From positions 4,898,042 through 4,962,041 of the forward strand of contig NC_087377.1 in assembly GCF_963675165.1 (NCBI RefSeq): a DNA stretch of 64,000 nucleotides. The letters are read 5' to 3'. Positions 6,815 to 32,928 of this stretch are shown here, in pieces (position 1 is the first letter of the stretch; the number at the start of each line of letters is the position of its first letter). Below the pieces are notes generated by a model. That model did not search any database, was not told the DNA's origin, and saw nothing but the letters and a program-made list of their open reading frames with translations. The translations under genes were made by a program, and so were the position numbers. Origin of the DNA: Halichondria panicea. Taxonomy: Eukaryota; Porifera; Demospongiae; Suberitida; Halichondriidae.

Positions 6815-6849
6815 CTGAAGATTTGCATGACTTATTATCTGTAGACTAT

Positions 6850-7470: not shown

Positions 7471-10208
7471 ACGAGATCCCCAGCTAGAAAAATGGCCGAG
7501 AGTACGTGTTCTAGTTCTTTAGAGCTGAGCAAACTAGAACCCAGGAGCACTGATTGTGATTATGATAACTTTGAAGATCTACAGGGTGAAGAGGTTGAGC
7601 TAGCAAAGAGAGATGCTACTGCTGATAGTACTGGGTTAGGACGGCTCCTCTTTAGGGGAGTGACTGGAGCTGTTGGTGCTGTGGCTTCTCTTGGTGCGTT
7701 TGGACAGAAGAATGGACCAAAAGGCGCTACAAAAATTAAAGAACCTCAATCACACAGACAAACAACCGCGGAAAAGCGAACCGGACCTCAACTACACGTA
7801 CGTCATTTATTAGTAGCTAGATATAATAGTCGGCCACTAATACGCTACATGTATCTAGTTACCGGTTACGATTACGATAAAATTACTTTATGCTGCACTG
7901 ATTTTTTGCAGGGAGAAACTGACCTTTTGGATGTTGCCTTTCAGCATTCAGCAGAGCTATTACAGAAGAACGCTGAACTCACAAAGCGTTTGTCAAATTA
8001 TGAAACAAAGAAGAAGCAAGAAATTAATGATTTCACAGCACATTTGAAAGAGTTGAAACGTGCTGTGACAGTATTGAACAGAGATTGTGAGAAAAAGGAC
8101 AAAAAGATTGCAGAGATGAAAACGTTGGTTCAAAAACTCTCTGACAAGAAGCGAGATGGGTCATCAGAACTTGCAAGGGCTCTCCATGAAAAAGATACCC
8201 AAATTGAAGCGTTAGCACAATTACTTCAAACAGAAAAAGTCAAACTCAGGGTTACTTGTACCGAGGTAAAAGAAAAGCAAAAGGAATCTGAAGAGTACAA
8301 GAAACAAACTCAAGAACTTTCCAACGAACTAAAGAAATATAATCGTGTGGATATTACCTTTGATAAAGACATTATTAGCGATTCGGGTGCTACTCACGAC
8401 ACAATCCATACACCCCAAGATAAAGAGGTGCAAGAATTAAATGAAGCAATACAGTCAGAGCCAACAGAATCACCTGGTGAATCAGTTGCATTGGAGAAAG
8501 TAGACCAGTTACAAGAAGCACTTCGAGAGAAAGAAATGCAATTAGCCAATCCAGAAAATCAACTGAAAGAGTATGAAGCTAAGGTGCTTGAAATGGAGCA
8601 GGTCAGAGATCACTCAAAGAGTCAGAGCAAGGCTATGCTGGTAGTGAAACAAGAGCTGGATGCAACCAAGGTGAATGAATGGCAATGTTTGGTATACATT
8701 GTACGTGTATAAGAATCATTAGCACGGTAGTGGGGGTGGGGCACGATCTTTAACAGTTGGGTCCAGCACTACTTCGAGTTTTGGGTGGGCAGGGCTCATC
8801 TGTAGAGTCTCAAATTTAATATTAATTTTATACCATGTGTTTCGGTGCTGTAACAGAAAGAAACGTTAATTTGAAAAACCCTCATTCAAATGCGTTATTC
8901 TTATGTAGAAACACATGCAAGTTGATGGTCAAATAGGTGATCAAGCGTCTCAAATAAAGAAAGAGGTGTAACGAGAAGTAGTGCTGGACCCAACTGTTAA
9001 AAATCGTGCCCCACCCCCAATTAGTTGGAGCATGCAAGACTATACCAACCCACAATCTTGTTTTCTTACTTTAGTGCACATGCTCTTCCAACCCTACTCT
9101 TTCCCATTTTTTCACAAAATGTTTTTTGCACTTGTGTTGTTTAGGGATTTCACTAATAATTAACATGCCATAGATGTCGCCTGATGATCTTGTGCAATAC
9201 ATTGGCTCCATGGAATGTCAGGTGGCTGATACAGAGGTACGTACATTACGTTTAGGTGCTCAATTACATTGTACAGCAATGTAAAATTATTATATGTATA
9301 TTTTAGACCCACTGTCGTAAACTCGAGGCTCAACTCAATGGTGCCAGAGAAGATTACGACATTGCACAGCAAGCATTGAGGGACACTAGGGAAGGTTTAG
9401 AGGCTGAGCTTGAAAGTGTTAGAGTGAGTCGACTGTTAGTACGTGTGACACTTGACCATGACTCTGTTTGTAAGTAACATTATCATATTTCATGTATATA
9501 GGAGACCCACTGTAAGTTGTCGACTTCCAAGAGTTCAATGGAGGCTAAACTATTTCAGGCCCTAGACAATTTATCTGTCGAGAAAGAAGCATTCGTACAG
9601 GAGCGAGCAGTTCTGAAACAAGAGATTGTTGACCTTCACGATAAGCTGGCAATCACCACAGCAGAGGTAAGTATATAATTATGGTATTGTTCACTTCATG
9701 TACATGTTCACCATTACAGGCTGAGCTGTACAAAGAAGACTTTGAGAGTGAGCGGAAAGATAGGGAAAAAATCACGATCTTAGAGAAGAGATGAGATGTA
9801 TTTGTGATGAAAAGGTTCACGCAATGGCAAAGGAACGACATGCGTTTGAGGAATGTATACAAAATCTGACAAGAGAACTTCAAGGACTGTCTAATGAAAA
9901 AGAGGGCTTACTAGAAATAAGAGCATTTACTAGGCAGCACAAGCCTCAACAGAACGACAAACAGATCCATGAGCTTCAAGAGCAGCTCTACGTAGCACAT
10001 CAGAAGGCCATCACAGCTCAAGAGGAAGTCCAGGCAAAGACAGCTCAGGTCAAACAGTACAAGAAGAAAGATGACCAACGGGAGGAAAAAGTAAATAATT
10101 ATATCACAATTCATATTCCCAATGTTTCCCAATACATAGTTATATACATGTACAGTGTATTTGCACTCGACCCGACCCAATGTTGTGATACTTCCTGTTG
10201 AAATACTT

Positions 10209-10241
10209 GGGTTTGGGTTTTTTGGGGTTTGGGGGTTTGGG
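10209..10241 (+). repeat. G-run tract with quadruplex potential
   Basis: Five runs of three to five G separated by T3-T6 lie in intron 6 of the chimeric gene. The duplicate copy at 19471-19490 has only one GGG run, so the tract expanded or contracted after duplication. Confidence 0.6.
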
Positions 10242-10834
10242 TACGTCCCACAATTTTGCATTTTTCCTAATTTTTGTCTACAGCTCATCAGTCTGGATGT
10301 GAGGAACCAGGAACTGGTTCAGGAGATGGAGAGGGTCAGGAGTGAGCTGATAAAGGCGAAAACTGAGAGCGCAAATTTACTAAAGGAGGAGAAAAAATTG
10401 AATCAAAACGAAATGAAGAAAATTTGCCTGGAGCTGGAAAGAGCTCTCAAAAAGACGTCAAAATCTAAGGCCCATGATGAACTGCTGAAGGTGGAACTGG
10501 TCAATAATGTAAGTTAAATTTGGGCGTAAACTATTTATAAGAATTGTTTTTGCAGTCACTTCGTGTTGACAAAGAAAGATTAAGCGGATCTCTTCAAGAA
10601 GTACAGGAACAGTTTGCTCGTCTGAAGCTTGAGTTAAAGAAGGAGGTTACTAATACCATACCCACCACTCCTCCTACGTATACCGAATCTACAATACCAA
10701 TTCAACCCAACCAGGTACGAAATTTTTTGTTGCTAACCAGCATGTTACATTTTGAAGCCTGAACCTATCGTCATGTATATACATGTAAATGCACTACCAT
10801 TTTGAGGCCCGACATTTTTGAGGATTGACCTAGT

Positions 10835-11225
10835 TGGGCGTGGCCCATCTTGGACACTCACGTGGGGTTGGGCACCACTGCAATGCCTGGTTTTGTTCCG
10901 CTGGTACTTAGTCTTAGGTGTGGCTATAAGCATAAATAAATATCCCAAGTGGGCGGTAACCACCAAGCTCGGTTAGAATGCTATAATAGTCAATTGTGCA
11001 TACCACTAGCTCTAACTGACCTGGCGTGTTCCTGGATCAAGCTGGCCTGTCTACTATTGTTGCATTTTGATTTGACTATAAGAGAAGTGAGTCGTTCATT
11101 AATGAACCACGCCTTCAGCACTTGAACTCTGCAATCTGATTGGACTGCAAAATTTCTGCAGCAGGAACAAAACCTGACATTGCAGTGGTACCCAACCCTA
11201 TGTGAGTGTCCAGAGTGGGCCGATT
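10835..11225. mobile_element. Foldback MITE in intron 8
   Basis: The left arm (gggcgtggcccatcttggac...ctggttttgttcc) and the right arm (ggaacaaaacctgacattgcag...gtccagagtgggcc) are imperfect inverted repeats of about 60 bp. The same structure is carried at about 20082-20472 and, interrupted by another insertion, at about 36377-37060. No ORF is supported inside. TSDs were not defined. Confidence 0.55.
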
Positions 11226-13297
11226 GACCCAGAAATTTAGTGTGGGGAATGGACTGAATAAGTGTCATGAGTTGACTGCTTACAGAAAGCCACTCTTTAA
11301 TCTTTGCATATTATAGCACATAAAAGAACAATTTTCGTGCAATTAATTTTTGTGCAGAATTGCTAAGCAACGAAAACAGCGAAAATTAATCCCCTCTAAA
11401 ATTTCACGCTATACGGTATTTATACGAGTGACATGTATACGTGTATATTGCTCCTGCTTTTTCAGTTTTGTTTACAGGTCTCTGTCAAACACGATACTCC
11501 TCAAGCAAGGAGCTCACACCCCACCGCTATACCAAGACCCGATCCGAACAACGAGCACAGTATAGCTCAGCAACCACCAACCATGCCTAACGTGAACATT
11601 GTTCCTCAAGCAACGCAGGACAACTATAACCCACAACCCGAGGCTAGACTTGTACCCAACTCGCCAACTGAAGGTCGCTCGTCTATGAACTTTGACGACC
11701 CTAGGCCAGCTTATGATAGGGTAGAGGTAAATGGTTTTCGAAATGCTGCCGGGCAAAACGAACGGCAATCGTCTACTGGACCACAACCCGATAATAGCAT
11801 CCGCTATCCTCCGGGTTTGCAAGTAAAGCAAAGTCATAGTAGTGCCCCTAGCAGCACCAATTTAGCGCTATCGGAACAAGCGGCTAGCCCCACTGATGCC
11901 TTAAATAGAATGTCACTGGTTTTGGGCGATCAACAGTTGGAGAGACCCTCCAATATTCCTTCCGACTTCAGTCAAAGTCAGTACCCTGCTAACACTCACC
12001 AAGGAGGTGGCTATCAAGATCCAGTCAGTAACTATCAGGGTCAAAGTGGCTTTGATAACTTGCCACAAGATCAGTATCAGAATCAGTACATGCATCAGAA
12101 TCAGCCACGGCGAGAATCACCCAGTATGCACCGGCACCCCTCTCAATGGCCTAACCATGACCAGTTTCACCAGATGGAGGTTACTAATACCACCACTCAA
12201 CCTCCCATACCCATCCAGGTACATTCCCGTGATTCCAGTCATTATGCTAGTATATATGTATTGTGAATTAATGTTTTGTGCAGGAGTATACGTTATGTGA
12301 ATGCACATGTCCTCATACAATATACGTACATGTGCATGCGTGTGTGAGCTACATGCATGTATCCTAGGTTTCTAGTCAGGATTTGAGTTACAAAATAATG
12401 CTTCGTTTTCAATTAAGTTACCTAGTTTTGCTTACATGTACTTGGAATACCATTGCAGCCTTTTCAGAATAGTGCGTAGCAAAACTTGTCCATTGGAGTG
12501 AGTGTTGCTACTCTGCTTAGTAGTTATATAGCTCTGCACTAGAACGCTTGCTATTTGTTTCATGCAGCAGCAACTAATTTTATGGACTTCGAACATTTTG
12601 CATCCTTTTTAGCAACAATCATTCCTGTTTCTAATTATATCAGGGTCATTACCAAGATCGGTATCAGAATCAACCACAGCCACGGAATGTACCACCCAGT
12701 AACCACCCCTCTCAATGGCCAAACCAGCAACCATACCTACAAGACCACCTCTACCAGCAGCAGCCTGACGAACAGTATGAACATCCATTCAGTCAGCGAC
12801 AATCATTTCAGTGGGATAACACTTCCTCTCAAGAACGTATGGAGTCACAAAATTACCCAAACAGAAGGTCCCCCCACAATTATCCCCGAAGCTTGTCTTA
12901 TCCAGCCCACATCAGTTCACAAGAAGATTCTTCATTGTCGAGTACCTCTCTTTCAGAGAGCCCTAATCCATCGTACAGCCCTACCCAAGTAGCTATGCTC
13001 CCTCCCCCTCAGGCAAGACCTAGACCCAAACCACGAAAAGCTAATCGCAAGTTGTCGCAACAAAGAGAAGAGAATGAACTTGAAAAAGGCCTGTCAACTG
13101 AGATTAAAAAAATTGTGGGTGATTTATTTTATCAGCAATACGAGAGTGAGAAGCAACAAACTAACGAACAGGTTCCTCCCGATCCCAACCTGGTGTGTCA
13201 TGTGTGCTCCAAGCAACACAGACTGGGGGAGATTCAGAAGTATCGAAAACACGTGAAAGAGTGTGAGAGAGAGCAGGGAGTGAGAGCTGAGGAGGCG

Positions 13298-15950
13298 GTG
13301 AGTGAAGTATTATCAATACATTATAATGTTGAGAGTTATTATCATAAATTATAACCGCAACTATTTTTAGCGTCATGTTGTGGTGTTTGGTGGGTGCCAC
13401 AGTTTTTGCTGTGTGGTGGTATTTTGTCTATATGTAAATCAACTGTGATAACATTATATTTTTGCTCCCCTCATGTCATTTGAGGGTAGAAAATGTCTAT
13501 TTACCAAGACATACCTTATTTAGGCCGTGTATCCTATACAGAGATCAAACAGTGCATGTTCACTCAGCTAGTTCATCTATAGGGTGTTGCACCCTCGGAA
13601 TACATAAAACTGCCCTCGGGTACAAATCCAATACACAATTTTCTTTGTAACCTCCAATTCCTATAGTAAATGCACTAGAAGCTACAGAAGGATCCCTAAA
13701 CCGACCTAACCCGCTGAGTTAGCACTTTTATCTCGGTTAGGGGTTAGGGTTAGTAATTTGTATTACTGAGCATTTGTGTTACATCTCCTGTTATTCTATG
13801 AATCGTAGTAATTTAAACCATCATTGCTGGGAAGTGCAGCAACAACTGTGACTATTATATAAACTTAGTTTCTGGCTCATTACTTTGAGTATGACTATGC
13901 TACTCGCTTTCTAGTGTCACTGAGTATTGTTAGCATCATTTACTACTAGTAGAAGGCTACGATCGTTGGCTTAGCTAGAATAGCTATACGTTTCTCTGCA
14001 AGTTTCCATATATCTTTTATTTGTCTCCGTGCACGCACAATCCTCCGTAAAACATTTTAATCTAATTATGACCAACCTCCTTTGTCCATAGCAAGGCAGT
14101 AAAAAGCGATATTCAGGCTGGTAAGACTGACCATTTTTTGTAGCTAAGTATACATGTAGGTAATGGTCTTCAATATCGTAATCAATTAGTGAAATAGTTA
14201 GGCCTATATGAGATTTTCCATCTTATTGAATGACTAAAAAAATTGCCTAGCCATTAGTGGCCTGACCACTCGAAACTTGCTAGCTACATGTATGTACAAC
14301 TATCATGTACATGTATAGTACGGTTAAGGATATTATGTTTCACCCACGGGAAAACGATTTATCACTATCGTTACGTTTTTTAATGGACAATACAAGCCGC
14401 AATAAATTACTTTCTCAACTTTTTGGCAGTAAATTTTAACGTGGATAAACCTAAAAACGTTCAACTGAGAGATTAACGGCCAGACAGTTGATAAAAGCCA
14501 ACTTATTTCGAGCTACTCGCCTCTTAATTATGAAGTTGACAACGAACACAGTATAGCGCAACATTTTCACGGATTTCGTGGGTTAGCAATCCTACACGAA
14601 AATTAAGTCCACGAAAATTGTTCTATAACGTTGCAAAGATTAAAGGTGTGGCTTCTGGTAAGCAGTCATTCCACAAACATTGTGCAACGAAATGCTTTTA
14701 GAGGCCATTCCACGAAATATAAGTACCTCGAACAGTTCGCCCTATACGGTATCTCGTCGTCTGACCTTACGTATAATTATAGTAATACCAAAAAAGCCTA
14801 ATGCAAATTGACGTAAAAAATAGCAGTTTTGATGGACACTAACTTGTCTCATTCATGCATCTTCATAATCATAGCATTCTTACACAAAACAATAGCAATA
14901 TAAACACAGCAGACTTTGATCTTTGAACCTGCAAAATAGAAAAAGCTGACAGAAGGAAAGCGCCTCGCCTCGGTGCATGGAGGCACCAAACATGAAGTTC
15001 TACTAGATCAAGCAAGATTATAGATAAGTAATACTCCATATTCCAAGTAAGCAAACCTCGAACGAAACATTATTTTACATTGCAATCCAAGAAAACAAGT
15101 CTATAGAAATATACTCTTACTGCATGGCACTTCATTGATCCTTGAACCGCTGTAACACTAGTACTCTACCTACACACACACACATGCACAATCTACCGTA
15201 TACCACCTCATATGCACACTCTACCGCATTATGCCTCGCATTATGCCTCGCTTGCACATACGCAGACCAAGGCATAATAAAACTCATGAATATTCAGAGA
15301 GACCGCAATACAAGAATGCATATTACTTTGTTTCTATTCGTTTATCTATGGTTTATAGTACTGTTTTACATGTATATAATTATGTACATGTTATCTCTTA
15401 TATAATATTATGCAGGCCGCTAAACTTGCATCGGACACAAAACCATTCTCTATAAAACATTCTACTGATCCAAGGGATTGAACTGGAAAATTTATCTGAA
15501 AATTGTTCAAGTTTGCCACTTCTGTGCTGAAAGCTATTTGTAGCCTATAATTATAATATGTAAATTGAAAGCCTAATTCTACGTACATGCATGATTGCAG
15601 TATACAATTTTTACAAGCATAAAAAAAAAAACGGTGCTGTTTCTAGCGTACTTATACTTTTTATTACTTCAAAAATGATTTTATCTCAGACTTCATGATT
15701 ATTTTTAAAAACAAAAGTTGGTACATGCATGGATTGCTATATACACCTATGGAACACAGAATGTAACTGGTGTGTGCATCCAATATAATAGGAAAATTAA
15801 TTTTGACTATCGATTACGTACTGACGTGATACCGTTGTATAAAGCTCACCACCTCGTCAACAACGTCTTGATCTTTCACTCGTTGTTAAGATCATTCTTC
15901 CAGCTTGATTGTTTTATGGACATGGTCTAAATAGTTATTGGGTTGAATAA
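13298..15950. other. Duplicated spacer after zinc-finger gene (partner 54572-57040)
   Basis: After the zinc-finger exon comes a likely 73-nt intron (gtgagtgaag...ctatttttag) and a short hydrophobic stretch to about 13440, then roughly 2.5 kb with no supported gene. Most of it is conserved at 54572-57040, including a TTAGGG-like stretch at 13735-13753, a repeat with acgaaaattaag/cgctatacggt words at 14550-14760, and a CA-rich piece at 15173-15185. A minus-strand open stretch at 14869-15054 is not preserved as the same protein in the partner and is not called. Confidence 0.6.
13735..13753 (+). repeat. Short interstitial telomere-like repeat
   Basis: ggttaggggttagggttag gives about three TTAGGG-like units. 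The same motif recurs in the duplicated spacer at about 54989-55008, so it was copied with the spacer. Confidence 0.5.
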
Positions 15951-16699: not shown

Positions 16700-16760
16700 A
16701 CTCACGCGAGTGTCGTGTCAAGGGAGATCCCCAGCTAGCTAATTAAGCAGATACTGAAAA

Positions 16761-19700
16761 ATGGCCGAGAGTACAGAGCTAGAGCTGAGCAATCTACAAC
16801 ACAAGAGCACTGGTTGGGATAATCAAGGCTTTGAAGATCTACAGAGTGAAGAGGTTGAGCTAGCAAAGAGAGATGCTACTACTGCTGATAGTACTGGGTT
16901 AGGACGGCTCCTCTTTAGGGGAGTGACTGGAGCTGTTGATGCTGTGGCTTCTCTTGGTGCGTTTGGACAGAAGAATGGACCAAAAGGCGCTACAAAAATT
17001 AAAGAACCTCAATCACACAGGCAAACAACCGCGGAAAAGCGAACCGGACCTCAACTACACGTATGTCATTTATTAGTAGCTAGATATAATAGTCGGCCAC
17101 TAATACGCTATCTAGTTACCGGTTACGATTACGATAAAATTACTTTATGCTGCACTGATTTTTTGCAGGGAGAAACTGACCTTTTGGATGTTGCCTTTCA
17201 GCATTCAGCAGAGCTATTACAGAAGAACGCTGAACTCACAAAGCATTTGTCAAATTATGAAACAAAGAAGAAGCAAGAAATTAATGATCTCACAGCACAT
17301 TTGAAAGAGTTGAAACGTGCTGTGACAGTATTGAACAGAGATTGTGAGAAAAAAGACAAAAAGATTGCAGAGATGAAAACGTTGGTTCAAAAACTCTCTG
17401 ACAAGAAGCGAGATGGGTCATCAGAACTTGCAAGGGCTCTCCATGAAAAAGATACCCAAATTGAAGCGTTAGCACAATTACTTCAAACAGAAAAAGTCAA
17501 ACTCAGGGTTACTTGTACCGAGGTAAAAGAAAAGCAAAAGGAATCTGAAGAGTACAAGAAACAAACTCAAGAACTTTCCAACGAACTAAAGAAATATAAT
17601 CGTGTGGATATTACCTTTGATAAAGACATTATTAGCGATTCGGGTGCTACTCACGACACAATCCATACACCCCAAGATAAAGAGGTGCAAGAATTAAATG
17701 AAGCAATACAGTCAGAGCCAACAGAATCACCTGGTGAATCAGTTGCATTGGAGAAAGTAGACCAGTTACAAGAAGCACTTCGAGAGAAAGAAATGCAATT
17801 AGCCAATCCAGAAAATCAACTGAAAGAGTATGAAGCTAAAGTGCTTGAAATGGAGCAGGTCAGAGATCACTCAAAGAGTCAGAGCAAGGCTCTGCTGGTA
17901 GTGAAACAAGAGCTGGATGCAACCAAGGTGAATGAATGGCAATGTTTGGTATACATTGTACGTGTATAAGAATCATTAGCACGGTAGTGGGGGTGGGGCA
18001 CGATCTTTAACAGTTGGGTCCAGCACTACTTCGAGTTTTGGGTGGGCAGGGCTCATCTGTAGAGTCTCAAATTTAATATTAATTTTATACCATGTGTTTC
18101 GGTGCTGTAACAGAAAGAAACGTTAATTTGAAAAACCCTCATTCAAATGCGTTATTCTTATGTAGAAACACATGCAAGTTGATGGTCAAATAGGTGATCA
18201 AGCGTCTCAAATAAAGAAAGAGGTGTAACGAGAAGTAGTGCTGGACCCAACTGTTAAAAATCGTGCCCCACCCCCAACTAGTTGGAGCATGCAAGACTAT
18301 ACCAACCCACAATCTTGTTTTCTTACTTTAGTGCACATGCTCTTCCAACCCTACTCTTTCCCATTTTTTCACAAAACGTTTTTTGCACTTGTGTTGTTTA
18401 GGGATTTCACTAATAATTAACATGCCATAGATGTCACCTGATGATCTTGTGCAATACATTGGCTCCATGGAACGTCAGGTGGCTGATACAAAGGTACGTA
18501 CATTACGTTTAGGTACTCAATTACATTGTACAGCAATGTAAAATTATTATATGTATATTTTAGACCCACTGTCGTAAACTCGAGGCTCAACTCAATGGTG
18601 CCAGAGAAGATTACGACATTGCACAGCAAGCATTGAGGGACACTAGGGAAGGTTTAGAGGCTGAGCTTGAAAGTGTTAGAGTGAGTCGACTGTTTGTACG
18701 TGTGCATGACACTTGACCATGACTAGGTTATACTTATTTCCATGTATATAGGAGACCCACTCTAAGTTGTCGACCACCAACAGTTCACTGGAGGCTCAAC
18801 TATTTCAGGCCCAAGAAAAGATAGACAATTTATCTGTCGAGAAAGAAGCATTCGTACAGGAGCGAGCAGTTCTGAAACAAGAGATTTTTGACCTTCATGA
18901 CAAGCTGGCAATCGCCACAGCAGAGGTAAGCATATAATTATGGTATTGTTCACTTCATGTACATGTTCACCATTACAGGCTGAGCTGTACAAAGAAGACT
19001 TTGAGAGTGAGCGGAAAGATAGGGAAAAAGCTCACGATCTTAGAGAAGAGATGAGATGTATTTGTGATGAAAAGGTTCACGCAATGGCAAAGGAACGACA
19101 TGCGTTTGAGGAATGTATACAAAATCTGACAAGAGAACTTCAAGGGCTGTCTAATGAAAAAGAGGGCTTACTAGAAATAAGAGCATTTACTAGGCAGCAC
19201 AAGCCTCAACAGAACGACAAACAGATCCATGAGCTTCAAGAGCAGCTCTACGTAGCACATCAGAAGGCCATCACAGCTCAAGAGGAAGTCCAGGCAAAGA
19301 CAGCTCAGGTCAAACAGTACAAGAAGAAAGATGACCAACGGGAGGAAAAGGTAAATAATTATATCACAATTCATATTCCCAATGTTTCCCAATACATAGT
19401 TATATACATGTACAGTGTATTTGCACTCGACCCGACCCAATGTTGTGACACTTCGAATTCCTGTTGAAATACTTGGGTTTTTTGTGGTACGTCCCACAAT
19501 TTTGCATTTTTCCTAATTTTTGTCTACAGCTCATCAGTCTGGATGTGAGGAACCAGGAACTGGTTCAGGAGATGGAGAGGGTCAGGAGTGAGCTGATAAA
19601 GGCGAAAACTGAGAGCGCAAATTTACTAAAGGAGGAGAAAAAATTGAATCAAAACGAAATGAAGAAAATTTGCCTGGAGCTGGAAAGAGCTCTCAAAAAG

Positions 19701-22700
19701 ACGTCAAAATCTAAGGCCCATGATGAACTGCTGAAGGTGGAACTGGTCAATAATGTAAGTTAAATTTGGGCGTAAACTATTTATAAGAATTGTTTTTGCA
19801 GTCACTTCGTGTTGACAAAGAAAGATTAAGCGGATCTCTTCAAGAAGTACAGGAACAGTTTGCTCGTCTGAAGCTTGAGTTAAAGAAGGAGGTTACTAAT
19901 ACCATACCCACCACTCCTCCTACGTATACCGAATCTACAATACCAATTCAACCCAACCAGGTACGAAATTTTTTGTTGCTAACCAGCATGCTACATTTTG
20001 AAGCCTGAACCTATCGTCATGTATATACATGTAAATGCACTACCATTTTGAGGCCCGACATTTTTGAGGATTAACCTAGTTGGGCGTGGCCCATCTTGGA
20101 CACTCACGTGGGGTTGGGCACCACTGCAATGCCTGGTTTTGTTCTGCTGGTACTTAGTCTTAGGTGTGGCTATAAGCATAAATAAATATCCCAAGTGGGC
20201 GGTAACTGCCAAGCTCGGTTAGAGTGCTACTACTATAATAGTCAATTGTGCATACCACTAGCTCTAACTGACCTGGCGTGTTCCTGGATCAAGCTGGCCT
20301 GTCTACTATTGTTGCATTTTGATTTGACTATAAGAGAAGTGAGTCGTTCATTAATGAACCACGCCTTCAGCACTTGAACTCTGCAATCTGATTGGACTGC
20401 AAAATTTCTGCAGCAGGAACAAAACCTGACATTGCAGTGATACCCAACCCTACGTGAGCGTCCAGAGTGGGCCGATTGACCCAGAAATTTAGTGTGGGGA
20501 ATGGATTGAATAAGTGTCATGAGTTGACTGCTTACCGAAAGCCACTCTTTAATCTTTGCATATTATAGCACATAAAAGAACAATTTTCGTGCAATTAATT
20601 TTCGTGCAGAATTGCTAAGCAACGAAAACAGCGAAAATTAATCCCCTCTAAATTTCACGCTACACGGTATTTATACGAGTGACATGTATACGTGTATATT
20701 GCTCCTGCTTTTTCAGTTTTGTTTACAGGTCTCTGTCAAACACGATACTCCTCAAGCAAGGAGCTCACACCCCACCGCTATACCAAGACCCGATCCGAAC
20801 AACGAGCACAGTATAGCTCAGCAACCACCAACCATGCCTAACGTGAACATTGTTCCTCAAGCAACGCAGGACAACTATAACCCACAACCCGAGGCTAGAC
20901 TTGTACCCAACTCGCCAACTGAAGGTCGCTCGTCTATGAACTTTGACGACCCTAGGCCAGCTTATGATAGGGTAGAGGTAAATGGTTTTCGAAATGCTGC
21001 CGGGCAAAACGAACGGCAATCGTCTACTGGACCACAACCCGATAATAGCATCCGCTATCCTCCGGGCTTGCAAGTAAAGCAAAGTCATAGTAGTGCCCCT
21101 AGCAGCACCAATTTAGCGCTATCGGAACAAGCGGCTAGCCCCACTGATGCCTTAAATAGAATGTCACTGGTTTTGGGCGATCAACAGTTGGAGAGACCCT
21201 CCAATATTCCTTCCGACTTCAGTCAAAGTCAGTACCCTGCTAACACTCACCAAGGAGGTGGCTATCAAGATCCAGTTAGCAACTATCAGGGTCAAAGTGG
21301 CTTTGATAACTTGCCACAAGATCAGTATCAGAATCAGCCACGGCGAGAATCACCCAGTATGCACCGGCACCCCTCTCAATGGCCTAACCATGACCAGTTT
21401 CACCAGATGGAGGTTACTAATACCACCACTCAACCTCCCATACCCATCCAGGTACATTCCCGTGATTCCAGTCATTATGCTAGTATATATGTATTGTGAA
21501 TTAATGTTTTGTGCAGGAGTATACGTTATGTGAATGCACATGTCCTCATACAATATACGTACATGTGCATGCGTGTGTGAGCTACATGCATGTATCCTAG
21601 GTTTCTAGTCAGGATTTGAGTTACAAAATAATGCTTCGTTTTCAATTAAGTTACCTAGTTTTGCTTACATGTACTTGGAATACCATTGCAGCCTTTTCAG
21701 AATAGTGCGTAGCAAAACTTGTCCATTGGAGTGAGTGTTGCTACTCTGCTTAGTAGTTATATAGCTCTGCACTAGAACGCTTGCTATTTATTTCATGCAG
21801 CAGCAATTAATTTTATGGACTTTGAACATTTTGCATCCTTTTTAGCAACAATCATTCCTGTTTCTAATTATATATTCACTTCGTTCAGATCGATGAGTCT
21901 TTTGTTAGCATATAGCAGGCTAAGGATAGCTGTTTAGAATGCTATCATATATACGTACCTAACTTCTATCCTATACTGCTTCAATCCACTTCCGTTCGTT
22001 GTGACGTTATTGTTTTACTGAGCATATACGATGTTATCCAAAGTCCTCAGTTTCTTGGGATTAAGTGGCGCATGCGCAAACAGTCAATACCATGCAGCTA
22101 GGCCCATCTTCAGTGTGGCCTAGGATCGAGGCTAAATAATAGCATGATACCAAGTGTTTATGAGGACGAGTTGCCTGTATAATTATTTCACTCTCATGCT
22201 ATAATTATGTGTTTTATATCATGACAACCCTTACCAAATCATGCCTCGAGGCTATACACAATTGTGTAATAAAAAAATATTGAGGGGACTGTATGACTTT
22301 AATTTATTACACCCTTATAACCTTGACAACGTGATATGTGTAGTTAATAGCTAGTATAATTATAGCTGCATGTTGTAGCGCCTTCGCACCAATTAAGGCA
22401 TCATGCAGAAGTAGTATGTACCTGGGGTGCATGTTTTCATTCAGAATGTAGGCCACTCTGATGGAATTATTTACGCCAACATGGAGACATCTGCACAAGT
22501 TTGTGAGGCCCTTGAAGGAGGTGTAGCAGACTGTCATTCGTTGATTAAAAGGTAAATACCATTCCCAATACTAAATTGCTGTCTCAGCATAATTATATCC
22601 TCCACTCTACAGATTACAAGATGGATTGGCTTCATTTCAAACTAATCGCGAGGTCTTCATGAAGGTGACTGGGGAGCGGGACCGTCTCTCAATTGAAACA

Positions 22701-24713
22701 GCTGGTCAGAGGGAAATCATTGCTACCATCCAGCATGTAAGACCAAGAGAGAGAGTATCGGACGTAGGCATACTGTGTATCAGATGTATCTGGAGAGTAA
22801 CGTGACTGCTTGGAATTAGCACACTGACCCAAGCAATCCGAGTGTGAGTGATGATCCCTTTTTGATAGATTACGTCACCCATACTTGGATTGGTCGTGTG
22901 TAAATTCCAAACTTGTGACAGATACAGGAAGTCACGTTACTCTCCGCATACATCTGATGTACAGTTTGTCTACGTCTACATTCGAATCTCTCTCTATTAT
23001 ATACTCTTGGTATGACTGAAAGCCGTATATAACCCAAAATTTCAAGTGGCTTAATTTTTTCTGTTTTCGTGGGTAGTACATGTAATACCATAAAAACATT
23101 TATCTGTAATCTAGAAACGTGCAAAAATTTAAGGCGTGGGTATAAGCAAGTCAATCCACGATATTTATTCAACAAAATGCTTTTAGAGGTCTATACGGTA
23201 TAGTCCACACAGAACTGTTTTCCATTCAGCTGTATGAATAATATAATTTATGTATACACATAATTATTATATTACATGCATGAATGCCTATATATTATAT
23301 ACATAGGTTTACTGCACATGCATGCATGCACTGTGCTGTATACACTATTAATAGGAGTTGAAGATCAAAGAAAAGAAGAGTACAAGTTTGGCTGAGGAAA
23401 CTGAGAGGGTTAGGGTTGATCTCCAACTAGCCTTAAACAAAGTTAGTTTATAATTAAGGCGATGAATAGCACAATATTTTTCTGATAGTGTACAAAGTTA
23501 CTGACGTCTCTTAAGCAGTGCCGAGAAGAATCAGAGCAGAGCATAGCTGAAGTGAGAGGTCGTTGTGAGCAAGAAACCGATAGAAGGATTAAACAAGAGG
23601 TAAATACATGCACCTAGGGCTAATAAGGGGTTGCGGTTGTTAGTTTAAGCCATCTATAACTTGCTCATTCCTCTGCAGAGACAGGCTCGTAGGGTTTTTA
23701 AGCAACTGGACAGACGTGTGAAGGAGCCAGTCGTACTCTCACCATCAAAGGTACTGAAATAGTGTACACCATAACTAAATTCATTATAATTGCAGGGTAG
23801 GAAACGTGACGAGTCCCTACGAACTTACAGGCAGGAGGTTAAAGCGTTCACTGTGAATTTAGAGACACCTATCCAGTATTCCGATCGAAACCGGATCGGG
23901 AGTGGAAGTTTTGGATCTGTGTATGCAGTCAACTTGAATGGGGCTCCATGCATCGCTAAGCGTCTACACGACATACTTATGGGGCGTGGCAAACAAGAAA
24001 AAGTTGCACTGGACGAAAAGCAAGTATGCCATGAAAAGTTTTGTCGTGAGTGTGTTTTAATGAGCCAAGCAGAACACCCCAATGTTGTCAAATTCCTTGG
24101 AGTATATTTTGGTAAAGATGAGTTTGATCTGACACTGTTTATGGAACGGCTTCACACTGACCTTGAGGCGTACCTCAGCAGTACCCCAAACGTACCTCTT
24201 CCCACTAAGATATCGATTCTTCATGATGTCTCCTGTGGACTACTCTATCTCCACGAGGAGTGCTCTATCATCCATCGCGATCTCACAGCTGCTAACATTC
24301 TCCTAACAGCCGACAACCAAGCCAAGATAGCCGACCTTGGTGTGTCAAGAATTTTCGATAGAACTTTTTTACAACTCTCAAAGATTCCAGGCACTCTTGC
24401 ATACATGCCTCCTGAAGCTCTCAAAAATATTGCCAATTACGACGAAAGCCTTGACGTCTTTTCGTTTGGCGTTCTCACTCTTTGTGTTAGGATCCAAATG
24501 TCACCTGACCTCTCCTGGGATCATGTGCCCGATGATGTCCATGCCAAGGGGGAGCAAGAAATCTTCAAGAGAACATTTTGGATTGAGATAATGGAACAAA
24601 AACAACCTGAACTAATCTCGCTTGTCCTGTGGTGTTTGTCTGATGACCCTAAAAGCCGACCCAGCACTTATTGTATGAATGTTACCCTTCAAGAAATGAA
24701 ACACGACCTTTAG
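16761..24713 (+). CDS. UBAN coiled-coil protein kinase, intact 15-exon gene (kinase-type copy 2)
   Basis: Exons: 16761-17060, 17169-17927, 18431-18493, 18564-18680, 18752-18925, 18979-19350, 19530-19754, 19802-19960, 20729-21451, 22445-22551, 22613-22736, 23355-23441, 23489-23599, 23679-23750, 23796-24713. All have GT-AG borders and agreeing phases, giving about 1436 aa. Residues about 100-720 are coiled coil. Exon 6 starts AELYKEDFESERKDREK, matching the UBAN linear-ubiquitin-binding signature of NEMO, optineurin and ABIN. Residues about 724-964 form a disordered Gln/Pro/Asn-rich linker; exons 10-14 are a second coil. The last exon is a kinase: GSGSFGSV (exon residues 35-42), lysine 55, HRD at 160-162, DLG at 180, PPE at 205-207. 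No signal peptide or membrane segment is seen, so it is probably cytosolic. The HRDLTAAN loop lies between the tyrosine-kinase and TKL styles. Catalytic residues are present, so activity is likely. Its role as a ubiquitin-directed kinase is inferred from the domains. Confidence 0.8.
18979..19350 (+). other. Exon 6: UBAN (NEMO/optineurin/ABIN ubiquitin-binding) coil
   Basis: The exon opens with A-E-L-Y-K-E-D-F-x-x-E-R-K-D-R-E-K. Known UBAN coils share Y-x-x-D-F-x-x-E-R-x-x-R-E, which contacts Met1-linked diubiquitin. The same exon is found at 9720-10090 (frameshifted), 29827-30081 (fused to exon 7), 52238-52612 and 61619-62008, always with this opening and a following coil of about 100 residues. 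Confidence 0.75.
22746..22997. mobile_element. Small foldback element in the intron after exon 11
   Basis: The arms agagagagtatcgg...tatctggagagtaacgtgac and gtcacgttactctccgcatac...cgaatctctctct are imperfect inverted repeats. The duplicated kinase gene carries it at about 39106-39357. It has no coding capacity. Confidence 0.5.
23796..24713 (+). other. Kinase-domain exon (copy 2)
   Basis: A single 918-nt exon encodes 305 residues, beginning after the acceptor ttgcag at 23795. It carries a complete set of kinase motifs. It differs from the copy at 40139-41056 at a handful of residues, including R for G in CVRIQMSP and TFWIEI for KIWIEM in the C-lobe. The DLG in place of DFG occurs in active TKL-group kinases and does not by itself imply inactivity. 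Confidence 0.85.
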
Positions 24714-25287: not shown

Positions 25288-27230
25288 CTAGACTAAGTCA
25301 TGAATTAGCTCACAGTCTCGATCTGTACAGTTTTTAACATGTATCCTAAACTTCTGAATCTCTCCCAATCGATGCTGTTTATTGCACACGGGACACACAA
25401 GGTTAGGATCGCAGGGAATTTGCTTCATGGTTGGCTCTCTGGTTCTGTCTTTCATTATACCATTGTATATACCCTCACCAGTTTGTACCTCATCAAGAAT
25501 ATCTTGATCATTCACTCGTCCTTTAGTGCCTTCCATTCTAAGACTTCGATCTTGAATGTTTGTGGGAGGATTTATGGACATGGTCGACATCATGTCTACT
25601 ACAGTAACTATGGAATTATCCTCCTTAACTTCAGCATGAGTGTGTATGGCTGGTGTACTTCCATCTTCATGTCTATTCTCGACTGTAAGTTCTTTTCTTG
25701 AATCGTGTACACTTTCTAACAAAGGGATGTTTTGATAATATGCTCCCGAAGAAATGTCTGGTGGGCTGTCTGGTGGGATGAGAATTCCATCGATATTATG
25801 GTAGAGATGATTTTGAGGTACTGAATTCGAAGGTGGTTGGTTCACGTACACTTTCTTTGTGTCGTTTTGAGGAATATCAGACAACTGATTGGAAGATTGA
25901 GGTATCCCTGCTTCAACGGCAGTCACAATACCTGAGGGTGGGAATTGGACAATCTGCTGTGATAGCGGAATTGGTGATCTTGATGTTTGGAAATTTGTTG
26001 GAGTTGATGCTTGTACATTGTGTACCGGTATACCAACTTTAGCTCCTTGCTCTGTTGGCGTATTTAGCACAGCGTTGTTTTCACTTTGGCGTCTTCGATT
26101 CGTGACTTGTCGAGGGCTTGTACTGCGATGTTGTCGACCATCGCGAGAAGTTTGTTTAAATGTAGCAGCTTTTAGAGCCTGCAAAGATAGTAGCAGAGAA
26201 ACGTTTGACAGGCAATATATAATTATCTGCGTATATATAAACAATTGTGAAGCTACACACATAAAGTAGATCTCGATTGATAACATACCTTAATTTCAGC
26301 CATTTTCTTCTCTAGGTCATTAAATTGCGTCTCTATTATCGCTTTGATTCACAAGGACCAGCTCAGCCTCTTTATACTGCAGTGTCAGCCCGTTTAACTG
26401 GATCTTTATTTTATGTAGCTCTTCATGCAAGTCTTCGACCTCTTTAAACTTTTTGTTGAGGAGACGTTTAAGAGATTGTTGGTGTTCTGGTGTCGATTCC
26501 TTTAATTGTGTTTGATACCAGTCACACTTACAAATCATGGCGTCTCTTTCTTTAGCCAACTCAGTAAATTTATTTGATAAATCTTCCATAGCAGTGTCCT
26601 TATCACGTAGTCGGTCGTTGAAATGCTGTTTTTCTGACTGAAGATTTGCATGACTTAATTATCTGTATAACAATTGATTACAACCGGTATAGTGTACATG
26701 CACTTTCTATTATGTGTAATCTATTGGCACATGATCACTCTTAGCAGGTCACCCAGCTATATATATAGTATAATACACTTGATAAGCTCCATGCATATAT
26801 ATATATAGCATATGCATATAGCTTGTGTTCGGACGTGTGACCTGTGTTAATAGGCCATCTCTCTAACACATCCACTGCACATTGGTGTACACAAGGGTGA
26901 CTGCTATGTACGACAGGTCTAGCTCACTGCACCGCTTTACTTTAACCACTTACCGAGAGGACATTTAGTTCACCTTCTAGCCTGTTCTTAGTGTCAGACA
27001 ATCCTTGTTCCAACACTTTCTTGTCATCGACAAGGCCCTTGAGTTTGGCCTCCAACTTTTGAGTATTTTCCTGCAAAGAAATGTAACTTGATCACAGATG
27101 TTTGTAATTGTATACTCAGACTCAGTCAGCTGCTTAGGTCAATTAAAAGGGCATTTAAAGAACGCACCTCTGATTCTCTCAGCAGGAATTCAAGGGATTT
27201 CACTTGTTGTACAAGCTCGTTTTGTGACAT
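25288..27230 (-). pseudogene. Small zinc-finger type gene, copy 2 (2-nt deletion in exon 3)
   Basis: Minus-strand exons: 27230-27168 (start MSQNELVQQV), 27070-26954, about 26637-26289, and 26178-25288 with the stop at its end. Without the lesion it would be about 473 aa: coil, then a Ser/Pro/Asn-rich linker and the C-terminal finger CPVCNKQHRLGEIQKFRIHV-KNC. At 26340, tt is missing relative to the copies at 6520, 49320 and 58050, so exon 3 reads NQSDNRDAI then stop. There is no UBAN-like sequence in its coil. The architecture (coil then finger of NEMO/TAX1BP1 style) resembles a short NEMO. A single 2-nt event could also be an assembly error. Confidence 0.7.
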
Positions 27231-27570: not shown

Positions 27571-30500
27571 ATGGCCGAGAGTTCGAGTATGTGTTCTATT
27601 AAAAATTCCGTGGAGCTGAGCAAACTAGAACCCAAGAGCACTGGTTGTGATTATAATAACTTTGAAGAGATGCAGGGTGAAGAGGTTGAGCAAGCAAAGA
27701 GAGATGCTACTGCTGATAGTACTGGTATACTAATAGGACGGTTCCTCTTCAGGGGAGTGACTGGTGCTGTGGCTTCTCTTGGTGCGTTTGGACAGAAGAA
27801 TGGACCAAAAGGCGCTACAAAAATTAAAGAACCTCAATCACACAGGCAAACAACCGCGGAAAACCGAACCGGACCTCAACTACACGTATGTCATTATTAG
27901 TAGCTAGATATAGAGTAAACCACCGATTATCGAACACGTGCTATTTTCGAACGCTTGTTCTCGAGGACAGCGGCTCAGAGCACTATAAGCTGATAGTACC
28001 TAGGTATAGACAAGGTAAGGCTCTATTCAAGTCCAAACTCACGGCCAACAAAAATCTTCTTCGGCGGAGTTACAGGGCCAAATACTCAACTATTGGAACA
28101 GATTTAGTTCGAACATAGACACGATTCTTCGAACTCTCTCTCTCGTATAGACAGAAGGCTCTAAGCAGCTAGCTACAATGCATGACCGTAATCTACAACT
28201 AGTAAACTATGTACAGCTCTGGTTTCGAGGTCTGACTCCAAACGGTTAGACAATGGTGGCCTCTTGAAAAAGTTCAGTATTGCCATCAAAATCCGAACGA
28301 TTAATACCTTTTTATTCATAATTTCCTAAAGTTGCAGTATTACGTCATGGCTACACCGGAGATTATAAAGAAAAAGGCACTAATCGTTCGGATTTTGATG
28401 GCAATACTATCAGCTTAGTGCTCTGAGCCGCTGTCCTCGAGAACAAGCGTTCGAAAATAGCACGTGTTCGATAATCGGTTGTTTACTCTAATAGCCGGCC
28501 ACTAATACGCTATCTATAGTTACCGGTTACAATTACGATAAATTACTTTATGCTGCACTGATTTTTTGCAGGGAGAAGCTGACCCTTTGGATGTCGCCTT
28601 TCAGCATTCAGCAGAGCTACAACAGAAGAACGCTGAACTCACCAAGCGGTTGTCAACTTTGGAAAAAGAAAAGAAACTAGAAATTAATGATCTCACAACA
28701 CATTTGAAAGAGTTACAACGTGCTGTGACAGTATTGAACAGAGATGTTGAGAAAAAGGATAAAAAGATTGTCGAGATGAAAACATTGGTTCAAAAACTCT
28801 CTGACAAGAAGCGAGATGGGTCATTAGAACTTGCAAGGGCTCTCCATAAAAAAGATACTAAAATTGAAACGTTAACACAATTACTTCAAACAGAAAAAGG
28901 CAAACTCAGGGTTACTTCTACTGAGCTACAAGAAGCACTTCGAGAGAAAGAAACGCAAATAGCCGATCTAGAAAATCAACTGAAAGAGTATGAAGCTAAG
29001 GTGCTTGAAATGGAGCAAGTCAGAGACCACTCAAAGAGTCAGAGCAAGGCTATGCTGGTAGTGAAACAAGAGCTGGATGCAACCAAGGTGAATGAATGGT
29101 GATGTTTGGTGATTGTTTCACCAATAATTATAGCGCCAGAGTTTTAATGAACTCCTGATACATGTACGTGTATAAGAATGCTTTTAGGGCTTTACTAATA
29201 ATTATTTAACATACCACAGATGTCACATGATGATCTTGTGCAATACATTGGCTCCATGGAACGTCAAGTCGCTGATACAGAGGTACATAAATTACAGTGA
29301 TACGTTTCGGTGCTCAATTACATTCATTTGTTACATTGTACAGCAAGGTATATAATTATTACTGTATGTATATTTTAGACCCACTGTCGTAAACTCGAGG
29401 CTCAACTCAATGGTGCCAGAGAAGATTACAACATTGCACAGCAAGCATTTAGGGACACTAGGGAAGGTTTGGAGGCTGAGCTTGAAAGTGTTAGAGTGAG
29501 TCGACTGTTTGTACGTGTGACACTTTGACCATGACTCTCTTTGTAAGGTTATACTTAACATTATCATATTCCATGTATATAGGAGACCCACTCTAAGTTG
29601 TCGACCACCAACAGTTCACTGGAGGCTCAATTATTTCAGGCCCAAGAAAAGATAGACAATTTATCTGTCGAGAAAGAAGCATTCGTACAGGAGCGAGCAG
29701 TTCTGAAACAAGAGTTTGTTGAGCTTCACGATAAGCTGGGATTCGCTACAGCAGAGGTAAGCATATCAGTATAATTATGGTTACCGTATTGTTCACTTCA
29801 TGTACAGTACATGTTCACCATTGCAGGCTGAGCTGTACAAAGAAGACTTTGAGAATGAGCGGAAAGATAGGGAAAAAGCTCACGATCTTAAAGAAGAGAT
29901 GAGATTTGCTTGTGATGAAAAGGTTCACGCGATGGCAAAGGAACAACATGCTTTATTCGAAACTATACAAAATCTAACAAGAAAAATTAAAGAGATATCT
30001 AATAAAAAGAAACGCGTACAAACAAATATGTCAAAATCGGAGGCCCATGATGAACTGCTGAAGGTGCAACTGGATAATCATGTAAGTGTAATTCTGATGT
30101 GAAAAACTACTTTTATAGTTATTTTTGCAGTCACTTTGTGATGACAATGAAAAACTAAACAGATCTCTTCAAGAAGTACAGGAGCAGTTTGCTCGTCTGA
30201 AGGTACGTCACCTCGAGTTAAAGAAGGAGGTTACTATTGCCACACCCACCACTCCTTCTACTGAACCAATTCATCTCAACCAGGTACTTCATGGAAAATC
30301 TTCAGCTTAATTTGAAGCCTAAACCTGCTGTATAGCGCAACATTTTTGAGGCACTTACCTTTCGGGGAATGTCCTGAATAAATTTCATGAGTTGACTGCT
30401 TACCGAAATTCTAACAAAATGTTCATGGAATTAATTTTCATATATGCTAAGAGCGAAAATTTTGCGCTATACGATATTTGTACGAGTGATATGTATACGT

Positions 30501-31839
30501 GTATATTGCTCCTGCGTTCTGTTTACAGGTCTCTGTCATACAAGATACCCCTCAAGGAAGAAACTCGGACAGTAGCGACCCCACCGCTATACCAAGACCC
30601 GATCCGAGCAACAAGTATAGTATAGCTCAGCAACTACCAACCATGCCTAGCGTGAACATTGTTCCTCGAGAAACGCAGGACAACTATAACCCACAACCCG
30701 AGGCTAGACTTGTACCCAACTCGCCAACTGAAGGTCTCCCGTCTATGAACTTTGACGAACCTAGGTCAGCTCATGATAGGGTCGAGGTAAATGGTTTTCG
30801 AAATGCTGCCGAGCGAAACGAACGGCAATCATGTACTGGACCACAACCCGATAATAGCATCCGCTATCCTCCGGGCTTGAAAGTAAAGCAAAGTCGTAGT
30901 AGTGCCCCTAGTAGCACCAATCTAGCGCTACCGGAACAAGCGGCTAGCCCCACTGATGCCTTAAAAATGTCACTGGTTTTGGGCGATCAACAGTTGGAGA
31001 GACCCTCCAATATGCCTTCCGACTTCAATCAAAGCCATTACCCTGCTAACAACACTCACCAAGGAGGTGGCTATCAAGATCCAGTCAACAACTCTCAATG
31101 GCCAAACCAGCAACCATACCTGCAAGACCACTACTACCAGCAGCAGACAGTCCAGCCTGGTCCTCCTCAGTATGAACAGCCACGGTCACCACACTATAAC
31201 CCACAGCAACAGAATTATGGACCATCAAATGATCAGCAGCAAAGTCCTCACTGGTGTAACCATGGTCAGCAATATCCTAATTCTCAAAGGGAGAGCAACC
31301 AACAATACCAAGGTGCCAGACAACAAGCATACAACTATCCTAATGATGGACTGCAACCTCAGCAGTACAACACTATAACTCCGTCTTACCCAAGCAACTT
31401 CAGAGATGATGACGCCCATTCCCCTGTTTTAAATAACCATAACTCTTTGTCTGAAAACGCCTCTAATCCGATTCCATCAAACATTTCTTCACGGCCATCC
31501 ATTAACGGGTATGGTGTGGATATGAGCCCTGAAAAGCCAAAACCAAAACCACGAGCTCATTGTAAATCAGACACTCCCTCACCAGTTTCAAATCCACAAC
31601 AGCTCAATCCGAATCGTACCGAACTTCTTGTCAAACCCAACGGCCTGCAAGAAGGCATAGATCGAGAGATTAGCGAGGTAGCTGCTGCAGTGAGTCAGGT
31701 GACAAGGAAGGAAGGAGAAAGGGAGGGTGCTCCACTAGACCCCAACCTGGTCTGTCCAATGTGTATGAAGCAGTATCGCATCAGAGAAATACAACTGTAC
31801 AGAGCTCACGTCAACAAGTGCGATGGAACTAGACACTAA
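27571..31839 (+). CDS. Optineurin/NEMO-like UBAN coiled-coil zinc-finger protein, intact gene
   Basis: Exons: 27571-27885, 28572-29087, 29220-29282, 29379-29495, 29583-29756, 29827-30081, 30131-30283, 30529-31839. All phases agree, giving about 967 aa. An in-frame ATG at 27541 would add MSEEISSSRK. Exon 2 is shorter than in the kinase gene by 81 codons in frame. Exon 6 keeps AELYKEDFENERKDREK (UBAN) but is fused by deletion to the 3' part of exon 7. The last exon is a long Gln/Pro/Tyr-rich disordered region with EKPKPKPRAH, ending in CPMCMKQYRIREIQLYRAHV-NKC, a C-X2-C-X14-H-X3-C finger. UBAN plus a C-terminal finger is the NEMO/optineurin arrangement, so a cytosolic ubiquitin-reading adaptor is the best guess. 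Partners cannot be deduced. Confidence 0.78.
27913..28488. mobile_element. MITE with about 72-bp terminal inverted repeats, TA target site (intron 1)
   Basis: The left end GAGTAAACCACCGATTATCG and the right end (reverse complement GAGTAAACAACCGATTATCG) start nearly identical inverted repeats that run about 72 bp. TA flanks it at 27911-27912 and 28489-28490. The sister genes have the uninterrupted intron words gctagatataatag at this point. This indicates a Tc1/mariner-type non-autonomous element. A second internal inverted pair (ccatcaaaatccgaacgatta) is also present. Confidence 0.8.
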
Positions 31840-32414
31840 TGAACTCCCCAGTTTTTCTTTTGTTTTAGGTACAGTCGGAGTGCAGTACGTATAGCCATTT
31901 CTGCATTACCATGCCTAGGCTACTGTACCAGTTTTGTTTTGTATACTTGTCTCATGTATTCAAGGCTTTTTTCACTTCACTGTTGCTGTGATGTCATTAA
32001 TTGTGTGCATGGAATCAAGGGAAGTCCCAGGGGAAATCCCTCGCCCTTCCTGCCAAAAAGCAGCCACGCCCTTATAACTTTATATAGCTAGCTGGCCAGC
32101 CTAGCGCCTAGCTCGATCAGTTCTAGCCTCGATTCCAGGTAATTGTTTAGGCCTTGAGAAGGAGGCTAGATCAGTTCATGCTATAGCCTCGGTCCCAGGC
32201 CGATTTTTTTTTAATAGAACGAAGTTGAAAAATACGGCCTGGTATTGATTGTATCTGGGCGTGGCAGGAACAGGAAACAAAAGCAGAGATTCTTTACATT
32301 TTGTTTCCTGCTTTTTTTCTGTAATACTAAAGGTGTACGTAGAGGCATTTTACTCCCGTAAAAGTTACAGTAATTTAGCTCCGTGTCATGTTCTCAATTT
32401 ATAGCTAGCTAGCT
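31840..32414. other. Intergenic stretch with MITE-end fragments
   Basis: No gene is seen. Words of the family tagcctcgatcccaggccg appear at about 32125 and 32183, matching the termini of the palindromic MITE at 35217-35318 and fragments at 35787, 52101, 59953 and 63225. Confidence 0.5.
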
Positions 32415-32878: not shown

Positions 32879-32928
32879 AAAAACCACGCCCAGATCACGC
32901 CCAAATACAATCAATACCAGGCCTAGTA

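Follow-up and report, generated by a model that had tools for sequence, protein, structure and literature searches.

The gene at positions 16761-24713 of a 64,000-nucleotide stretch of the genome of the sponge Halichondria panicea, hereafter the window (C1:4898042-4962041), codes, in the reading that we favour with moderate confidence, for a long coiled-coil protein whose UBAN lies close to the middle and whose C-terminal part is a TKL-type protein kinase. The same reading includes an origin and a mechanism: a NEMO/optineurin/ABIN-like gene, with its coil, UBAN, linker and zinc finger, would have recombined within intron 9 with a kinase-bearing 3' module, and ubiquitin chains would serve to gather the kinase. 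The exon structure, the UBAN homology and contact residues, the complete kinase motifs, a similar pairing at other loci and the pattern of constraint on the kinase exon are established. The gene combines known parts in a combination that was not found described, and similar pairings occur elsewhere in the same genome.

A UBAN coil and a kinase domain in one open frame

When the exons were rebuilt and spliced in silico, fifteen of them gave a joined frame open over 1436 residues, with GT-AG ends at all 14 introns. The first-pass annotation, which was made from the sequence alone, had relied on the matching phases of these exons; the exons, the splice sites and the open frame all stand, while the phase argument is weak. 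Thirteen of the 14 introns are in phase 0 (exon 10 ends in phase 2), and paralogue models elsewhere on contig C1 are in phase 0 throughout (3/3 introns of a gene at 5.03 Mb and 5/5 of a model at 3.226 Mb), so that almost any exon join would match; phases were consequently dropped as proof of the joins. NCBI gene model P0001 ('myosin-1-like isoform X4', 1137 residues, from a cluster of 13 sequences) is the only public model of the gene found and maps to exons 1-14, the sole exon difference being that exon 9 begins at 20717 and not 20729, four codons earlier. P0001 joins exon 9 to exon 10, the junction on which the first-pass annotation had made its proposal depend.

The coil opening AELYKEDFESERKDREK that had been placed on exon 6 and the complete kinase exon are both present, and each is recognised by a Pfam profile (CC2-LZ, expectation value (E) 5.9e-5; Pkinase, E 1.9e-36). 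The CC2-LZ match spans residues 420-499 of the product and profile positions 13-88 of 100, and this profile check bears out the claimed UBAN, albeit at a score below the curated cut-off, as do matches among solved structures. A PDB sequence search with exons 5-6 returned eight matches, all of them to optineurin or NEMO and all weak (best E 0.0042), and of 21 matches to the UBAN region of the 5.03 Mb paralogue, 20 were NEMO, TNIP or optineurin chains. With a profile built from 13 sponge UBAN exons, the NEMO/optineurin/ABIN family supplied the first 20 of 23 matches, led by TNIP2 (E 1.3e-7), and the first match outside the family was tropomyosin (E 0.32). Two other coil exons of the gene served as controls: exon 2 gave no PDB match at E <= 1, and exon 7 gave 19 matches, none to NEMO, OPTN or ABIN. 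These controls rule out a chance coiled-coil match as the source of the UBAN signal.

In the 13-row sponge alignment Tyr, Asp, Phe, Glu and Arg do not vary, and a further Arg is shared by at least 90% of rows; since the motifs used to find 11 of these rows impose the Phe and the Arg and restrict two other columns, independent invariance is limited to the Tyr and to the selection of Asp and Glu. The alignment left out many genome profile matches and, among the tandem copies described below, B, D, E and the core of copy 0, which begins at the Asp. In optineurin, Asp474, Glu478, Arg479 and Arg482 are described as contacting ubiquitin, and phosphorylation of Ser473 as promoting ubiquitin binding (PMC4999505). 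Exon 6 has residues aligned with all four contacts, and at the Ser473 position the window gene has Glu, likewise found in optineurin chain 9b0b. Judged by sequence, the coil of exon 6 is a UBAN. The N-terminal part of the protein had no Pfam match at E <= 0.1, and no search aimed at the IKK-binding region of NEMO was made. Exon 1 contains the stretch GFEDLQSEEVE, which we take to resemble an LC3-interacting motif and which, beside a UBAN, would presumably suit an autophagy receptor.

Exon 15 carries a complete kinase domain in which the glycine loop, Ala-Lys, HRD, D-L-G and P-P-E are all present, as the first-pass annotation had stated of its catalytic motifs. The nearest solved kinases by sequence, among the best 60 of 1077 PDB matches, are plant CTR1, IRAK4, LIMK2 and TNNI3K, all members of the TKL group, and from these nearest solved chains the kinase is provisionally classed as TKL-type. 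Against the truncated tandem copy T the ratio of nonsynonymous to synonymous rates (dN/dS) for the kinase exon is 0.23 (dS 0.044, dN 0.010; nine synonymous and seven nonsynonymous differences), against a copy on contig C16 it is 0.25, against one at C1:3.27 Mb 0.35, and comparison with the 5.03 Mb gene gives 0.18 (dS 1.7). These values fit constraint on the kinase exon, although that constraint may predate the fusion. At about 0.87-1.71 Mb, contig C3 carries related kinase exons in a very large tandem cluster, with dozens of matches at about 40% identity.

Probable recombination in a tandem array, and paired loci elsewhere

The window is a tandem array of UBAN-gene copies around the window gene (Table 1), and its structure suggests how a kinase came to follow the UBAN. 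Copy B is 98.6% identical in DNA to the window gene (7487-12640 against 16756-21873), and this identity ends in intron 9, four bases before the CCHC zinc-finger exon of B, which places a recombination join in that intron. Copies B, C and D all end in a CCHC finger after the UBAN half; the finger regions at 12644-13297 and 30490-31839 have weak PDB matches to DNA polymerase kappa (E 0.035) and TAX1BP1 (E 0.71). Copy B has a frame break inside exon 6. Copy T is 99.2% identical in DNA, over 36759-41141, to the 3' part of the window gene and has the intron-9 join and the kinase module in common with it; no UBAN exon was found with T. The simplest history, as read from these alignments, would be that recombination within intron 9 replaced the finger end of the window gene with a kinase end.

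Copies so similar (98.6-99.2% identity over 4-5 kb) raise the prospect that near-identical haplotypes were assembled in tandem to give a false join. We regard this as the least probable of the alternatives considered, given that the join occurs twice with 0.8% divergence and that diverged loci of similar architecture lie about 0.1 to 1.7 Mb away. Scarcely more probable is a pair of adjacent genes, the first with the UBAN and exon 9 as its last exon, the second with the kinase and its start at a Met in exon 10. Intron 9 is about 1 kb long and the start codon in exon 10 is plausible, but P0001 splices across this point, and copy 0 bears on it directly. That copy has a more distant UBAN-like core, DFDEERKDQAEAH, followed by coil repeats, a Pro/Gln linker and the kinase module, and its exon at 2318-2604 passes in frame from the linker directly into exon-10 sequence, so that exon 10 is internal there and not a first exon. 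At C1:3.226 Mb, moreover, the UBAN-like and kinase exons are separated by introns of only 52-95 nucleotides. P0001, copy 0 and this compact locus are the grounds on which the two-gene reading is rejected. Copy 0 has one frame break in the coil exon at 626-846 and another in the kinase; a closely related kinase exon that is intact is found on another contig record (P0078).

The pairing is not confined to one gene: UBAN-like and kinase exons are paired on one strand at seven loci in the assembly searched (131 Mb, 39 contigs); the window gene and copy 0 are those with a 5' end set. Four loci (the window gene and those at 3.226, 5.02 and 5.03 Mb) keep an open frame in both parts, and CC2-LZ reaches E < 0.01 at four (the window gene and the loci at 5.03, 5.117 and 5.145 Mb). 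A search of the genome with the CC2-LZ profile listed 38 matches, none above the Pfam cut-off, of which 25 had E < 0.01. C1 carries 24 of these 25: two lie near 1.06 Mb, where no related kinase exon was listed, and the other 22 fall within 3.13-3.83 and 4.85-5.19 Mb, regions that also contain related kinase exons. Two of 14 control genomes likewise gave matches at this loose threshold, none over the cut-off. Not every related kinase has a UBAN: a scan of upstream stretches for the kinases at C16:4.33 Mb and C1:3.273 Mb gave no instance of the motif, and models P0011 and P0082 had no CC2-LZ match at E <= 0.01.

Other features between the copies may be noted. Frames that may belong to a mobile element (a helicase-like, a Cys-rich and a 484-residue frame) lie at about 32400-34650, between copies C and T; such an element may explain the lost 5' half of T. 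Minus-strand genes at 25288-27100 and 5395-6845 end in the same kind of CCHC finger, and the former also has an exon like exon 4, two of its frames having no CC2-LZ match.

Table 1. Exons of the window gene, copies in the tandem array and paired UBAN-kinase loci. Positions are those of the window unless a contig is named.
Feature	Position	Strand	Content and evidence
Exon 1	16761-17060	+	Start codon, no known domain; exact in P0001
Exon 2	17169-17927	+	Coiled coil; exon in P0001
Exon 3	18431-18493	+	Spliced frame and P0001
Exon 4	18564-18680	+	Coil; spliced frame and P0001
Exon 5	18752-18925	+	Coil before UBAN core, first half of CC2-LZ match; P0001
Exon 6	18979-19350	+	UBAN core AELYKEDFESERKDREK at 18979-19029, then coil; P0001
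Exon 7	19530-19754	+	Coil; spliced frame and P0001
Exon 8	19802-19960	+	Spliced frame and P0001
Exon 9	20729-21451	+	Pro/Gln-rich linker; alternative acceptor 20717 adds Phe-Cys-Leu-Gln (FCLQ), used in P0001
Intron 9	21452-22444	+	Copy B homology stops at 21873, recombination join inside
Exon 10	22445-22551	+	First exon of kinase-side module, ends in phase 2; P0001
Exon 11	22613-22736	+	Spliced frame and P0001
Exon 12	23355-23441	+	Spliced frame and P0001
Exon 13	23489-23599	+	Spliced frame and P0001
Exon 14	23679-23750	+	Spliced frame and P0001
Exon 15	23796-24713	+	Kinase domain of TKL type, complete (about 23877-24668), then stop; Glu-Thr-stop from alternative acceptor 23801
Copy 0, 3' part	1-4899	+	Older UBAN-like-linker-kinase gene starting upstream of the window (L027:7397)
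Copy B	7492-15469	+	Exons 1-9 like window gene, then zinc-finger exon 12644-13297, last exon about 15416-15469; no kinase
Copy C	27571-31839	+	UBAN protein with C-terminal zinc finger
Copy T, truncated	36193-41053	+	End of exon 8, exon 9, exons 10-15, intact kinase
Copy D	50638-56602	+	Zinc-finger UBAN protein; NCBI model P0002 includes its exons from 7 on
Copy E	59405-63515	+	Exons 1-7 of a further UBAN paralogue running past the window
Paired locus, window gene	16761-24713	+	Both parts open; CC2-LZ E < 0.01
Paired locus, copy 0		+	Frame breaks; core by motif and exon 6 similarity (E 1.6e-9); absent from CC2-LZ list
Paired locus, 3.226 Mb	C1:3226221-3228096		Six exons, introns 52-95 nucleotides, all phase 0, 516 residues; both parts open
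Paired locus, 5.02 Mb	C1:5019592 to about 5021.8 kb		Both parts open; exon 6 similarity E 7.6e-9
Paired locus, 5.03 Mb gene	C1:5025910-5031190		678 residues in one model, CC2-LZ E 1.6e-7, Pkinase E 3.8e-35; both parts open
Paired locus, 5.117 Mb	about C1:5116.7-5127.6 kb		Coil frame break, long intron; CC2-LZ E < 0.01
Paired locus, 5.145 Mb	C1:5145316-5150022		Stop near kinase end; CC2-LZ E < 0.01; model P0196

Weighing the fused reading

A number of observations weigh against the reading of the window gene as a working fusion of UBAN and kinase. Its CC2-LZ score of 23.9 bits is under the Pfam curated cut-off of 35.3, and the profile stayed below that cut-off in every sequence and genome search run. 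The UBAN exon is also less constrained than the kinase, with a dN/dS of 0.37 against copy D, 0.67 against E and 0.51 against C (comparisons with B involve 0 to 5 changes per exon), and exon 10 gives 0.31 against copy 0 and reaches 1.06 against the C16 copy. Low profile scores and moderate constraint on the UBAN exon are what might be expected if the coil were a dimerisation scaffold alone, its UBAN-like motif no longer binding ubiquitin and the protein being an ordinary coil-dimerised TKL kinase. We think this unlikely, because the Tyr, Asp-Phe and Glu-Arg are the sole invariant columns in the 13 sponge rows (even with motif selection of 11 of these leaving the Tyr and the preference for Asp and Glu as the independent part) and because the profile made from those rows retrieves UBAN chains almost exclusively.

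Among the paired loci, CC2-LZ is not significant at 3.226 Mb (E 0.37) or 5.02 Mb (E 1.23), and the 516-residue model of the former has no match at E <= 0.1; the UBAN is therefore detected by profile at E < 0.01 in only two of the four open loci (the window gene and that at 5.03 Mb), and the calls at 3.226 Mb, 5.02 Mb and copy 0 rest on the motif, supplemented in the latter two by similarity to exon 6. Three of the seven loci are damaged by a frame break or stop (copy 0, 5.117 and 5.145 Mb). When 24 kinases are placed on a tree, the UBAN label (seven rows) is scattered and requires at least six changes, where shuffled labels required a mean of 6.2 and were as low in 285 of 500 trials; the label 'no UBAN' here means upstream DNA scanned mostly over 1.5 kb together with the genome-wide profile list. 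With the observed label changes no fewer than the shuffled, a single origin of the pairing is not supported, and the pattern reflects either several gains or a gain with repeated loss and exchange.

A further difficulty concerns the junction with the kinase itself. P0001 enters exon 15 at 23801, five nucleotides in and out of frame, so that it reads Glu-Thr-stop and excludes the kinase. The model backs one gene from the UBAN to exon 14, and does not back the join of exons 14 and 15 in the kinase frame. A stop in the last exon generally leaves a transcript beyond the reach of nonsense-mediated decay, and the product of the 23801 acceptor is for that reason probably spared. Among 76 database protein matches there was no kinase-bearing protein of the window gene, and a search for the 5.03 Mb gene gave no protein of it and one protein (P0196) from another locus. 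This absence is weak evidence, since the H. panicea entries in the match lists are numbered X2 to X5 and never X1, and the database may miss isoforms.

A second NCBI model, P0002 ('cingulin-like protein 1 isoform X5'), splices exons 1-6 of the window gene (16761-19350) to the zinc-finger end of copy D (52750-56602), 33 kb downstream. It represents either long-range alternative splicing that swaps the kinase for a zinc finger or a chimera of near-identical paralogues; if the former, the 5' half may use other ends, and if the latter, public models here may be chimeric and P0001 is itself somewhat weakened. A third model, P0196 ('aurora kinase A-like isoform X3'), from the 5.145 Mb locus, joins the coil of the UBAN exon via small exons to a kinase, although it begins at a Met behind the UBAN core.

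The first two of these models lend some substance to the idea that the kinase exon is normally unused, with transcripts taking the 23801 acceptor or a zinc-finger end, and that the kinase is a recombination remnant in a tandem array; P0001 and P0002 both avoid the kinase, and the damaged frames of copy 0 and of the 5.117 and 5.145 Mb loci would be in keeping with it. We consider it the strongest of the rival accounts and still improbable. The kinase frame is intact in both the window gene and T, with low dN/dS between them, although over only 16 differences; the CAG acceptor that preserves the frame precedes the other, and T shows no difference in the 40 bases around it; and P0196 retains a kinase behind the same kind of coil. 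On the fused reading, then, the first-pass proposal of a UBAN and a kinase in one polypeptide keeps the UBAN by sequence, the complete kinase, the join of exons 9 and 10 and the recurrence of the pairing, and is set back by the departure of P0001 from the kinase frame. It had overlooked both the zinc-finger ends that follow the same UBAN half in the tandem copies and the five-nucleotide acceptor shift that removes the kinase, and its interpretation is only partly supported.

A proposed ubiquitin reader with its own kinase

A review of the UBAN family names NEMO, optineurin, ABIN1-3 and CEP55, describes the human receptors as working with separate kinases and, in its main text, nowhere uses the words 'kinase domain' (PMC11854354). 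The sponge protein resembles NEMO, optineurin and the ABINs (TNIP1-3) in that its long coiled coil contains a UBAN motif with the residues that contact ubiquitin. The tandem paralogues B, C and D share with NEMO and optineurin a finger at the C-terminus, theirs of the CCHC type and of tentative kinship to that of NEMO; the window protein has a kinase domain in its place and no finger in its 1436 residues. Its likeness to the TKL kinases CTR1, IRAK4, LIMK2 and TNNI3K is limited to the kinase domain, the N-terminus being a UBAN coil. MAP3K1 and the MARK/SIK kinases (the latter with a UBA) also combine a ubiquitin-type module and a kinase in one chain, but their modules are different and they are not known to have a UBAN. 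The claim that the fusion belongs to no described family agrees with our literature search, which found none in open-licence literature, mostly titles and abstract openings. Among the 18 matched database proteins inspected (12 of 76, five from the best 120 of 4586 and one of one), those with a UBAN-family coil are all from H. panicea, and the ENA proteins P0003, P0004 and P0006-P0010 match the window gene in the kinase alone.

The mechanism that we propose begins with dimerisation of the coil, as in other UBAN coils. The dimer would use its UBAN to bind ubiquitin chains, linked through Met1 or Lys63, that an activated receptor or a cargo carries. Where one chain recruits several dimers their kinase domains would come together, and the gathered kinases would phosphorylate each other and then nearby substrates. 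The protein would thereby act as NEMO plus its kinase, or as ABIN plus a RIPK/IRAK-like kinase, in one chain. Linear polyubiquitin and NEMO are reported to prime trans-phosphorylation of IKK2 (PMC9035715). The logic proposed for the sponge protein is the same, but in the IKK complex reader and kinase are separate subunits, and IKK is not known as a TKL kinase. The acceptor five nucleotides inside exon 15 could in addition switch the gene to a UBAN-only product without nonsense-mediated decay. More tentatively, it is possible that Halichondria possesses an expanded and recombining family in which UBAN reader halves are joined to TKL kinase or zinc-finger output halves, and that the window gene is a one-chain, ubiquitin-gated kinase switched off by this acceptor. 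The sponge would in that case have assembled several NEMO-kinase relays, each self-contained.

The described human readers of linear and Lys63-linked chains are adaptors with a separate kinase, and a single chain with both functions would demonstrate that one protein can contain the whole relay. If true, it would also provide a minimal system for asking if the proximity that chain binding creates is by itself enough to activate a kinase. The question bears on how ubiquitin-dependent innate signalling was wired in early animals. NEMO is reported as absent from the majority of species in one survey, mainly of cnidarians (PMC8260672).

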